A stretch of 64,000 nt of DNA from Dyadobacter sandarakinus (GTDB lineage: Bacteria > Bacteroidota > Bacteroidia > Cytophagales > Spirosomataceae). This document shows positions 21,267 to 25,296 of the stretch, one piece after another. The position numbers were made by a program, and so were the translations under genes. How positions within the stretch are numbered: position 1 is the first letter of the stretch; every line of letters starts with the position of its first letter. Below the pieces are notes generated by a model. It did no database searches and was not told the DNA's origin. It saw only the letters and a list, made by a program, of their open reading frames with translations. Where the stretch lies: NCBI RefSeq assembly GCF_016894445.1, contig NZ_CP056775.1, forward strand, positions 3,164,001-3,228,000, in the 5' to 3' direction.

Positions 21267-22214
21267 ATGGCCTTCGAAATATTTGAACAGCACTTTGGAG
21301 AATTGACTGAATATGTCGTACAGGATGCTGCTACCGGCAACCGGTTCGTGGTGGTACCTGAACATGGCGCGATTATCCGGCAGCTCTCATTGCGTAAAAA
21401 CCTGACACTTTTTTCAATCCTAAAAACGCCGCCTACTCCTCAGGCAATACTGGCAGACACGAAGAGTCACAGCGAGCTCCTGTTCCCTTTTGCAAGCCGC
21501 ATACCTGACGGGAAGTACAAGTTTCTGGGCAAGGAGTACCAGCTGGAAAAAAATGAAGATGGTAACCTGAATGCTATCCACGGTCTTGTTCGCAAAAAGC
21601 ATTTTGAGTTGGGTGATCAGGTGATTGAAGCTGATCACGCATCGATCCAGCTGCATTATCATGTACAGGAAACAGCCGGATACCCGTTTGATATCACATT
21701 TTCCGTAAAGTACACGCTGCATGCTGACGGGCGGTTTGAGTTAACCTATGATGCCGTCAATAATGGTAAAGATCCGGCACCAGTTATGTTTGGATGGCAT
21801 CCCTACTTTTTTCTGGGCAATGAGGATGTGGATGCCTGGAAAATCAACATTCCTTCGGATACGGTTGTACGTTTTAACGAAAACCTGATACCTGTCGGAA
21901 AAGATCAATTTACCACAGAAATGCCGGTTCTGCTGCACCGCCGCGACTTCGATAACTGCTTTGTCGTAAAAACATCTGGTTCAGGAGTATCCACCGAGCT
22001 AATTTCCGCAAACCAGAATGTAACATTAAAAATAGATCAGGAAACAGGAGAAGGAAAGTTCAATTACCTCGTCGTGTACACGCCGCCTGCCCGGGACTGT
22101 GTTGCCATTGAGCCGCTTACTGCCAATGTGGATTCCTTTAATACAGGAGAAGGATTGAACATACTGGCGCATGGTCATCATATTTCCGGAACCATCAGCC
22201 TTCGACTTATTTAG
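21267..22214 (+). CDS. Aldose 1-epimerase family protein
   Basis: A 315-residue galactose mutarotase-like protein, which interconverts alpha and beta anomers of aldoses. Conserved positions seen are FPFASRIPDGKY, AIHGLVRKKHFE (catalytic His region), MFGWHPYFFLGN (second His) and a Glu in the C-terminal third (PLTANVDSFNTGEGL). No signal peptide. It converges on the nucleotidyltransferase gene and the two stop codons overlap by 4 bases. It could belong to the broader aldose epimerase group that acts on phosphosugars. Confidence 0.88.
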   Translation: MAFEIFEQHFGELTEYVVQDAATGNRFVVVPEHGAIIRQLSLRKNLTLFSILKTPPTPQAILADTKSHSELLFPFASRIPDGKYKFLGKEYQLEKNEDGNLNAIHGLVRKKHFELGDQVIEADHASIQLHYHVQETAGYPFDITFSVKYTLHADGRFELTYDAVNNGKDPAPVMFGWHPYFFLGNEDVDAWKINIPSDTVVRFNENLIPVGKDQFTTEMPVLLHRRDFDNCFVVKTSGSGVSTELISANQNVTLKIDQETGEGKFNYLVVYTPPARDCVAIEPLTANVDSFNTGEGLNILAHGHHISGTISLRLI

Positions 22215-23335
22215 AAGCAATTTTTTCGATACCACTTCCATTTGGCGACAAGTAGGCGCCAATGCAGGAAATAGGAAATGTGGGCTTTGACCAGACTTAG
22301 CCTGCATTCCCATCCATCACGGTATTTGAAGTTAAAAGAAAAAATTTGCCAGGTTTTCGTTTGCGGGGCAGGTCGGGCATTTTCCCAATGTCCAACCGTT
22401 GAAGTGATGAATGCTGCGCTCCTGAGCTGGTCAGCGGACGGACCAAGGTATGAGACATAATTTTCACCGGATACGACTTTAACCAGCTCCAGTGACTGTA
22501 CCAGTAGTCCGTAAAAGGATCCTGACCTGGCGGCAGCCTCGATGAAAGCCCAGTCAAGCTGGGGAGCAAACTTTCTCAACAGCCTCACGAAGTCGCCCAG
22601 GTACTTTAATTTATCCCACTGCTCTACCCCACCATGGTGAACAACCATCATGAGCAGCTGATTTTCCATGTTTGGAACATTCACCGTGCGCTGCATCATT
22701 TTAAAACTAATCATATTTCCAGCCAGATCGGCCCAAAAAAGGTTGTAGCAATACCGAGGGTAGCTGATACTCCATTGTACTTCCAGGGATTGAAGGGTAT
22801 GCTCGTCGGCCGGTACCAGCGGAAGCTGATAGTCGGTGTTCAGATAATCTTTTTCATGCTGGTCTAACAGGTATGCCCTGTACTTATCGGGATAGAAATC
22901 GTACTGCGCGAGAATATCCAAACTTTTGCGTACGCTGCTGCGCTCAATGAAGAAATCGATGTCGCCAAATTCCCGGTTCGTTGGTTTTTTGTACAGCATC
23001 CACGACCATAAGGCACCTTTCATCGGGAATACAGGTACGCCATTTTCCTGTAATGCATCGTACAACTTCACCGAAAGTCCGAGAAAAGCCATATTGGCCA
23101 CCGCTTGTCCCAGCGCGAACTCTTTTAGTGATTGATAAAAAGGAACTGCTGATTCAGGCACGCGCTCAGCTGGGATAAAATCGAAAAGTGATGGACGTAC
23201 CTGGTGCCATTTTGCCAGCTTGGCAATGCGCTTCCAGTTAATATGCTGCAAATCAGAATACCTTTCGCCGGGCTCATTTTCCAGCGTAGCATCAATAAGC
23301 ATTTGCAGCTCAGCAGAGACTTTCGGACTATGCAT
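22211..23335 (-). CDS. Nucleotidyltransferase family protein of the PqqD/B2 cassette
   Basis: A 374-residue protein of the NTP_transf_5 (PF14907-like) group. The start of the fold is FPMKGALWSWMLY (Lys106-Gly107), and the metal-binding acidic pair is FGDIDFF (Asp125, Asp127), preceded by the conserved R of NREFGDID. Members occur in peptide-natural-product clusters with PqqD, B2 and kinase genes, where they may modify the product; the reaction is not established. It is the last gene of the minus-strand operon, overlapping the kinase gene by 8 bases, so the proteins are probably made together. Confidence 0.85.
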   Translation of the reverse strand: MHSPKVSAELQMLIDATLENEPGERYSDLQHINWKRIAKLAKWHQVRPSLFDFIPAERVPESAVPFYQSLKEFALGQAVANMAFLGLSVKLYDALQENGVPVFPMKGALWSWMLYKKPTNREFGDIDFFIERSSVRKSLDILAQYDFYPDKYRAYLLDQHEKDYLNTDYQLPLVPADEHTLQSLEVQWSISYPRYCYNLFWADLAGNMISFKMMQRTVNVPNMENQLLMMVVHHGGVEQWDKLKYLGDFVRLLRKFAPQLDWAFIEAAARSGSFYGLLVQSLELVKVVSGENYVSYLGPSADQLRSAAFITSTVGHWENARPAPQTKTWQIFSFNFKYRDGWECRLSLVKAHISYFLHWRLLVAKWKWYRKNCF

Positions 23336-24248
23336 GGTGAGCTAGGGTGGGCTCATTGGTCAAATTCTCGGCAACCCAAAGTTCCAGCTCTGCGAAGCCG
23401 GCAGGCCGGCGCTTCTTCATAATTTGAGCATGGCTCGCGCATTGCAGACTTTCTATAAAATGCTTTTTCAAAGCCGGCGCGGCAAGAAGCTCTGCGGGTA
23501 ATGGAAAATTCCTCAGCATCTCGGCAGGAATGGCAGGAGCACTCAGTACCTCTTCCTTTTTACGATTGCGGATTTTATGCAAAAAATAAATACGCCCTAA
23601 CCTGACGGGCTCCTCCGGAAAACCAGCTTGGGGATGATAGGCAAACTTGTTCACTCCCTCGCTCACCGGACTAAGATGAGCAGTATTGTAGCCCAGCCCT
23701 TCTACTGTTTTTTCCCAGATTTTAAGCTGCGGATAGGCGGGTACGATATAGGGGACTCCGTGCTTAAAGCTTATTGCTGTGAGGTCATCGCTCAATAATG
23801 CACACCCGGCCTTGACAAACGCTGCTGCTGTGGTGGATTTGCCGGCACCAGGCGTACCCATGAAGCACCAGCTTTCCTTACCAATCTGTACTGCACTGGC
23901 ATGCAATAAAAACATGCCCCGCTGAAAGAGGATCAGGCCCAATGCTTCACTTACCGTAAAGAGGCTGAGCAAAGAAGGATCGCTAGTAAACGGTTGTACA
24001 TAAAGCATATTACCATCTGCCGCTTTGTAGCTTGCCAGGCCTTTCCAATGCAGGAAAAGGCTGTTCTCACTTTGTGCAAAATCCGCACAAATCCCACGTC
24101 TGTAAATATGCGTTGGCCTGACTGCCGGAACTGGAAATGCAGCTTGCACAATGTGCAGGTCGTAAGGATCCTCGGAACTGACAGGTACCAGCTCCGGCAG
24201 CTCGATTTCTGAAAATATATGCAGTCCGAAAGCGCGGTAAGAATACAT
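23328..24248 (-). CDS. HPr kinase-like P-loop kinase of the PqqD/B2 cassette
   Basis: A 306-residue protein with the C-terminal fold of HPr kinase/phosphorylase. A His is at residue 116 (LLHASAV), Walker A is GTPGAGKST at 131-139, and the second acidic motif is LLSDDL (Asp154-Asp155), matching the HPrK order H, P-loop, D-D. The regulatory N-terminal domain of true HPrK is replaced by an unrelated beta-rich segment. Such kinases occur in lasso peptide clusters, where the paeninodin-type enzyme phosphorylates the precursor C-terminus. The open frame starts at 24296; I chose the ATG at 24248 because the earlier residues would overlap the B2 gene. Confidence 0.85.
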   Translation of the reverse strand: MYSYRAFGLHIFSEIELPELVPVSSEDPYDLHIVQAAFPVPAVRPTHIYRRGICADFAQSENSLFLHWKGLASYKAADGNMLYVQPFTSDPSLLSLFTVSEALGLILFQRGMFLLHASAVQIGKESWCFMGTPGAGKSTTAAAFVKAGCALLSDDLTAISFKHGVPYIVPAYPQLKIWEKTVEGLGYNTAHLSPVSEGVNKFAYHPQAGFPEEPVRLGRIYFLHKIRNRKKEEVLSAPAIPAEMLRNFPLPAELLAAPALKKHFIESLQCASHAQIMKKRRPAGFAELELWVAENLTNEPTLAHHA

Positions 24249-24265
24249 GAATAGAGGTTCAAAGC

Positions 24266-24709
24266 TTAGCTCCACACCCAGATGCGCTGATAACACACCG
24301 AATCGGACCAGTCGCCGATCAGGATTGTACCGTTGCGCTCTACCCAGGCATGGGCTTCAAATGATTTATTAGGATTAATTTCAACGCCAATTTCCAGTGT
24401 CAATGCTTGGGCATGGCGAAGTATATATTTCAGCGCCAGTGCTCTTGGCAGGCAAAGCAGCTTCAATGGCAGCAGGTTGGCAGCCGTATCCACCGCCCAA
24501 ACCGCAGCATTGATATCTGCTGATGGAAGATCAGGCAACTTAGGGCCTTGACTCAGGTAGTGGAAGATGTTTCTGAATGTTGAAAAAGGCAGTACCGTTA
24601 ATCCGCATTTTACCAGTACCAGCACCACAGCAGCCCGCAGGAAGAACTTTCTTTCCAGCTGAGACAATGCAGCCCATTTGGCAAAATATGTCCGGCTCTT
24701 CCTGAACAT
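24266..24709 (-). CDS. Lasso peptide biosynthesis B2-type protein (transglutaminase-like protease)
   Basis: A 147-residue protein matching the B2 leader peptidase of lasso peptide pathways. The cysteine-protease triad is complete: Cys86 in LLCLPRALALKY, His120 in FEAHAWVE, and Asp133 in LIGDWSD. One hydrophobic helix (about 22-44) precedes the domain, as in the family. B2 proteins remove the leader from a precursor delivered by the PqqD-like B1 partner. The ATG at 24709 overlaps the PqqD stop codon as TAATG, a sign of coupled translation. A longer frame to 24781 would run through the PqqD gene and is not used. Confidence 0.85.
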   Translation of the reverse strand: MFRKSRTYFAKWAALSQLERKFFLRAAVVLVLVKCGLTVLPFSTFRNIFHYLSQGPKLPDLPSADINAAVWAVDTAANLLPLKLLCLPRALALKYILRHAQALTLEIGVEINPNKSFEAHAWVERNGTILIGDWSDSVCYQRIWVWS

Positions 24710-24978
24710 TACTCCTTGATTACCCTGACAAGCTTTTCCGACACCAGATCTTTCAGTAATGCATCCACATCCCTGCGGCACGTAAGCTCGTCAACCTCGT
24801 ACTCGCTGATCACCGCGTCACAAAGCTCATCCACGGTCTGCGGCCCCTGTTCCAGCGTATCCCAGACAACGAGACCCACCTGGTTAAGTCCGTAATAGGC
24901 TCCTTTATTATGGTTTAAAATGACAGTGTCCTCTCCTACTTTGGAAGAAATCTGGTCTTCGGTAAGCTCGTATTTCAT
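24709..24978 (-). CDS. PqqD family leader-binding protein (lasso B1-like)
   Basis: An 89-residue PqqD-like domain. It shows the typical pattern of three strands then helices: VILNHNKGAYYGLNQVGLVVW followed within the chain by TVDELCDAV and CRRDVDALLKDLVSEKLV. PqqD domains (RiPP recognition elements) bind the leader of a peptide substrate and present it to partner enzymes. It is the first gene of the operon PqqD, B2, kinase, nucleotidyltransferase. I chose the ATG at 24978; a TTG at 25008 would place the start inside the promoter's -7 region. Confidence 0.88.
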   Translation of the reverse strand: MKYELTEDQISSKVGEDTVILNHNKGAYYGLNQVGLVVWDTLEQGPQTVDELCDAVISEYEVDELTCRRDVDALLKDLVSEKLVRVIKE

Positions 24979-25005
24979 ACAAATGCACTTTGGTGTGGCT
25001 ATATA

Positions 25006-25036
25006 CAAAGTTAATTTTTAATCTACCGTCTCCAAA
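25006..25036 (-). promoter_or_regulatory. Complete Bacteroidota promoter of the PqqD/B2 cassette
   Basis: On the minus strand a -33 TTTG (25033-25036), a 19-base spacer and a -7 TAACTTTG (25006-25013, exact TAnnTTTG). The transcript would start near base 25001, about 25 bases before the PqqD start codon, so no other gene is transcribed ahead of PqqD from this promoter. Confidence 0.75.
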
Positions 25037-25181
25037 CTTTATCATCCGGCTGGAAAATACTACGCAATGTACCAGCGGCAGTACTTATTTTTCTTTCGGA
25101 AAGCAAAAAGCCAATTTGCGGATGCTGCGGAATTTCATTCGCTGAAACCTTATGCTGCGGCATAATCCATTGCAGCTGCAT
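25023..25181 (-). CDS. Possible small protein upstream of the PqqD gene (52 residues)
   Basis: An open frame on the same strand as the PqqD operon, from an ATG at 25181 to a TAG at 25023-25025. The product begins MQLQWIMPQHKV and ends IFQPDDKVWRR. It lies where a precursor peptide would be expected, but it lacks the usual lasso signs: no Thr at position -2 before a core Gly, no acidic residue 7-9 positions after a Gly, and no C-terminal Ser for the kinase. Its 3' end overlaps the -33 box of the operon promoter. It could be a chance frame or a gene remnant. Confidence 0.25.
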   Translation of the reverse strand: MQLQWIMPQHKVSANEIPQHPQIGFLLSERKISTAAGTLRSIFQPDDKVWRR

Positions 25182-25296
25182 TCGCTTTTTGGTTCAGTAC
25201 TTTTTTACACCAGCCATACGAATTGATAAATCATATACCGTTGCCTAGCTATTTATCAATCTTAGCGTCAATTTTGTACAACAAAAACATCTTGTC

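Follow-up and report, generated by a model that had tools for sequence, protein, structure and literature searches.

The B1-B2-K-N gene cassette of Dyadobacter sandarakinus very probably provides, in trans, the processing steps of a lasso-peptide pathway that is split in two, as judged from sequence, with the precursor (A) and the cyclase (C) supplied from a separate locus. The initial annotation was right in that the window (the whole stretch of DNA analysed, 64,000 nucleotides) holds neither a cyclase nor a precursor. The genome, which is a single contig of 6.07 Mb, holds one of each, and the two lie together 2.27 Mb from the cassette. This strongly supports the earlier suggestion that the cassette acts on a precursor encoded elsewhere, and the gene set that had been described as reduced is complete but split. 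In the window, the cassette and its promoter are arranged as follows:

25006..25036, minus strand: Bacteroidota-type promoter TTTG-N19-TAACTTTG, upstream of B1, read from the sequence
24709..24978, minus strand: B1, PqqD-like RiPP recognition element, 89 aa (PF05402, E 7.9e-20)
24266..24709, minus strand: B2, lasso leader peptidase (transglutaminase-like), 147 aa (PF13471, Transglut_core3, E 6.7e-20)
23328..24248, minus strand: K, predicted HprK/PEPCK-fold kinase, 306 aa (TIGR04352, E 3.6e-8, below cut-off; PF07475, E 0.003)
22211..23335, minus strand: N, NTP_transf_5 nucleotidyltransferase-like, 374 aa (PF14907, E 3.9e-40)

These family matches confirm the identities originally given to the four minus-strand genes, and the junctions read from the sequence are those of the one transcription unit that had been claimed, with a 1-base overlap between B1 and B2, a 17-base gap between B2 and K and an 8-base overlap between K and N. 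The promoter upstream of B1 also stands: both boxes are kept in 18 of 20 relatives and the -7 box TAACTTTG in all 20, at about -36 to -62 relative to the B1 start, with a chance-match frequency of ~0.0025 in the shuffled upstream region of our genome. The best NCBIfam match of B1 is NF033536 (lasso_PqqD_Bac), with a score under the cut-off of that model. B2 passes the lasso B2 model NF033537 (82.6 bits, cut-off 33). The link to lasso peptides was drawn correctly. The pair of B1 and B2 that is required for lasso biosynthesis is present, although only part of the catalytic triad described as intact in B2 holds among relatives: Cys and His are invariant (alignment A2), whereas the Asp (D131) is replaced by other residues. 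No solved structure was matched by the B2 sequence.

The P-loop of K is intact, as had been proposed, and its Lys137 is invariant in alignment A1 along with His116 and Asp154-Asp155. This His-Lys-Asp-Asp motif occurs in all 48 genomes of the genus, in one of them (G012) within a split ORF. The sequence-family match of K is weak; its PDB matches by sequence are to HprK, and its AlphaFold model (pLDDT 93.6) retrieves PEPCK and HprK folds in Foldseek, so that the fold model supports assigning K to the HprK/PEPCK fold. In N, the KG, R and GDxD residues are invariant (alignment A4), and in Foldseek the AlphaFold model (pLDDT 92.2) weakly resembles ANT(2'')-Ia and MenT-type nucleotidyltransferases.

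A genome-wide search of the kind proposed in the initial annotation, for an asparagine-synthetase-like C protein and an ORF with a leader motif, yielded exactly one PF00733 (Asn_synthase) protein in the chromosome, and one precursor beside it:

genome 5,457,631-5,459,750, minus strand: A-C locus (precursor and cyclase)
genome 5,457,631-5,459,571, minus strand: C, Asn-synthetase-like macrolactam synthetase, 646 aa (PF00733, 134.7 bits)

The precursor is a 51-aa ORF, MRTVTAHSTQTKKSYVKPALVKHGKVSKLTKGKQGSSLDDDGGEFNYTADA, located directly upstream of C on the same strand, ~23 bases apart. It passes the NCBIfam lasso leader model NF033521 (23.9 bits, cut-off 19) and is the single precursor in the genome under profile A5, with 89 bits against 12 bits for the next match, which lies inside a 496-aa frame. 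It carries the YxxPxLxxxG leader, the penultimate Thr and an acidic ring acceptor at core position 7-9; in alignment A5, Y15, P18, L20, G24 and T30 are invariant and D39 (core Asp8) is nearly so. The best NCBIfam match of C is the lasso cyclase model NF033535 (157 bits, under the strict cut-off). Its SGGxDS motif is invariant, and the Cys2 glutaminase residue is absent (our protein starts MVNVEG). B2 (PF13471), N (PF14907) and PqqD, the latter searched with B1 as the query, are likewise present in single copies. From a window without cyclase or precursor it had also been proposed that a reduced cassette makes a linear peptide that is cleaved and phosphorylated or nucleotidylated but carries no macrolactam. 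This proposal retains very little probability, given that every genome holds both a cyclase with an intact SGGxDS motif and a precursor whose Asp8 ring acceptor is near-invariant.

With these components in mind, we infer that the two halves act jointly, in the following order. A and C would be made from the distant locus, B1 would bind the leader of A (Y-x-x-P-x-L-x-x-x-G), B2 would cut A after LT-K, and C would join Gly1 to Asp8 (or Asp9) in the core GKQGSSLDDDGGEFNYTADA to close the ring. K may then phosphorylate a core hydroxyl, and N may extend the product by another group; by analogy with PsmN of pseudomycoidin, this would probably be a sugar attached to the phosphate.

Lasso genes usually share one locus, although clustering is not what defines them chemically. 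No such clustering is found in our genome, and the same division runs through the genus. A, C, B1, B2, K and N were all found in 48 of 48 Dyadobacter genomes, where the count for A combines the results of several searches and includes a copy with an apparent frameshift in G012. The cassette sits between an ftsH-adjacent epimerase and FAD/uvrC genes in all 20 genomes inspected, and A-C usually lies between udk/lipoprotein and two C25 peptidases. In the 20 genomes that have both loci on one contig the distance between them is at least 559 kb, and no cyclase occurs within ~8-10 kb of the cassette in the named Dyadobacter species.

One may ask whether the cassette instead acts on a different, unrelated peptide, with A-C forming a separate lasso system that has its own unrecognised peptidase or none. 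The 2.27 Mb between the loci would fit this explanation, as would the promoters: 39 of the 40 loci lack the B1 promoter motif upstream of A, and co-regulation of A and the cassette is therefore not evident. Pseudomycoidin synthesis in vivo is, moreover, reported to need no leader peptidase, by the title of the paper. Yet PqqD, B2, the cyclase and a recognisable lasso precursor each occur just once in the genome, the six genes co-occur in every one of the 48 genomes, and related genera hold a homologous C adjoining a homologous B1-B2-K-N. We consider two unconnected systems quite improbable.

These related genera are Spirosoma, Fibrisoma and Runella, where at most a few kb separate C from B1-B2-K(-N) in one contiguous cluster (for example L105, L108, L119, L140, L151); in several Spirosoma clusters a lipoprotein and a C25 peptidase adjoin C, as in Dyadobacter. 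The difference is that these genera keep in one place what Dyadobacter keeps in two. The neighbourhoods inspected were those of B2 in the family's other genera and of K in named genomes; among them, C is also close to B1-B2-K(-N) in Acidobacteria, in cyanobacteria and in a Methanothrix MAG. In another three genera (G072, G080, G086) the cassette again adjoins ftsH and lacks a neighbouring C, which is encoded at a different place, next to a lipoprotein and a C25 peptidase of the Dyadobacter kinds. Among genomes of the family, 9 of the 10 with B2 carry a high-scoring C (best match at least 490 bits), whereas none of the 14 without B2 does (best 125 bits).

The initial annotation had conceded that a C adjacent to these genes in other strains, with the present locus merely truncated by rearrangement, would speak against it. 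An adjacent C does exist in the three genera named above, but our locus is untruncated and the split is fixed in 48 of 48 genomes. Another explanation holds the cassette to be what is left, in decay and without function, of a formerly contiguous lasso cluster that rearrangement has broken up. The contiguous clusters of relatives could be read in this way, as could the long end branch of our own cassette (0.98 against a median of 0.16) and the lesions seen in two genomes, an apparent frameshift in A with a split K in G012 and a stop in C in G030, which may be assembly errors. Such decay appears extremely improbable, however, since the four cassette ORFs and their catalytic motifs are present in 46 of the 48 genomes despite ~60% identity between species (the exceptions being the split K of G012 and a variant N motif in G060), and since the leader and ring motif are conserved.

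The C-terminal Ser is the residue that PsmK phosphorylates in the pseudomycoidin pathway, where PsmN then adds one or two hexoses (PMC9266682, PMC8498205). The cluster of Bacillus pseudomycoides resembles the Dyadobacter genes in combining lasso core enzymes with an HPr-kinase homologue and a nucleotidyltransferase; it differs in that its genes form one cluster and its target is the C-terminal Ser, whereas Dyadobacter has two loci, no exporter nearby and mostly lacks that residue. Paeninodin-type clusters (PadeK/ThcoK/SyanK) similarly share the HprK-homologous kinase with His-Lys-Asp-Asp and the separate B1 and B2, but their precursors keep the C-terminal Ser, which occurs in only ~7 of the 40 Dyadobacter precursors extracted. 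Our predicted core ends TADA and so lacks this acceptor; the predicted main core of D. crusticola DSM 16708 is GKIGSAQDLGPTFDFSE. A Ser near core position 4-6, on the other hand, is found in all 40 extracted precursors, and in two genomes with an intact K (G007, G068) the ring Ser5 is the only core hydroxyl. Because the C-terminal Ser is mostly missing and the ring Ser is kept, K presumably acts on the ring Ser or on something else.

A wider model may be put forward tentatively, and we regard it as possible rather than likely. According to this speculation, a single B1-B2-K-N hub that the whole genus keeps at a fixed chromosomal site would serve in trans one precursor-cyclase pair or several, encoded elsewhere, and the residue modified by K and N would be the ring Ser5/6 and not the C-terminal Ser, resulting in ring-phosphorylated, possibly glycosylated lasso peptides. 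One genome (G026) has a single B2 in a single B1-B2-K-N cassette, together with three C and at least four precursor candidates (L070, L085-L087, L282).

For A-C the nearest ABC_membrane protein is ~88 kb away, and for the cassette ~130 kb. The lack of a nearby exporter counts against the split-pathway reading, as do an A without the B1 promoter motif, a C that scores under the strict cut-off and a core without the C-terminal Ser.

Division of a lasso pathway has a precedent in the cebulassopins, lasso peptides that, by the title of the report, come from a 'split biosynthetic operon' and thus from a pathway divided between places in the genome (Um et al. 2026, J Am Chem Soc 148, 6739). A citing Saccharopolyspora paper suggests an actinomycete as their source, and neither Bacteroidota nor K/N genes are known to be involved. 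As that operon was reported in 2026, the Dyadobacter arrangement is a variant and not the first split. In the case of citrulassin, a tailoring enzyme (peptidyl arginine deiminase) is encoded outside the cluster (PMC8498205); there, one tailoring enzyme is distant, whereas in Dyadobacter the leader-processing pair is distant too. Both split lasso operons and distant tailoring enzymes are therefore already known, and what is unusual in Dyadobacter is a split that is fixed across a genus. Our search of the literature for Dyadobacter together with lasso peptides gave a single match, on another RiPP class; pairing lasso peptides with Spirosoma or Cytophagales yielded no relevant paper.

Lasso peptides are mined through clustered A, B and C genes. 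Dyadobacter and at least three sister genera keep their lasso genes in two places, and to a miner that relies on clustering either half would look incomplete. This culturable genus offers a natural case in which to test leader processing in trans, the sharing of a peptidase by several cyclases and the action of a kinase without its usual acceptor.

Several minor observations concern the cassette itself. The end branch mentioned above, measured in changes per column, is that of 22211-24978, and the neighbouring ftsH is ~95% identical to its relatives. An initial impression that G012 has no precursor was rejected, its precursor being present with the apparent frameshift; this frameshift and the split K (L066, L091), like the stop in C of G030 (L225), reflect either decay or assembly errors. 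The N genes of the 48 genomes (the 22211-23335 slot) fall into two lineages, ~30% identical between and ~50% within, while K stays ~61% identical as the N lineages differ; on the cassette tree, 5-9 switches are required. N type and core class seem linked, but this link is not separable from relatedness, the independent pairs being too few. The 2.7 kb that separate B1 from the FAD gene in relatives were considered as an exporter candidate and rejected, as they hold a lysine-degradation gene pair: most relatives carry a saccharopine dehydrogenase-like gene and an aldehyde dehydrogenase gene there (L064:7769-10384 and equivalents), and in our genome this pair is absent at 24979-25296.

At the other locus, the flanks of A-C in Dyadobacter include two C25 peptidases that match the NCBI model 'putative T9SS sortase PorU2' (L033:3206-9635, plus strand) and a ~230-aa lipoprotein with no family match (L033:11879-12583, minus strand). 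Similar peptidase and lipoprotein genes adjoin C in the sister genera and in Spirosoma clusters. The C25 peptidases and the lipoprotein could conceivably stand in for an exporter or an immunity protein.
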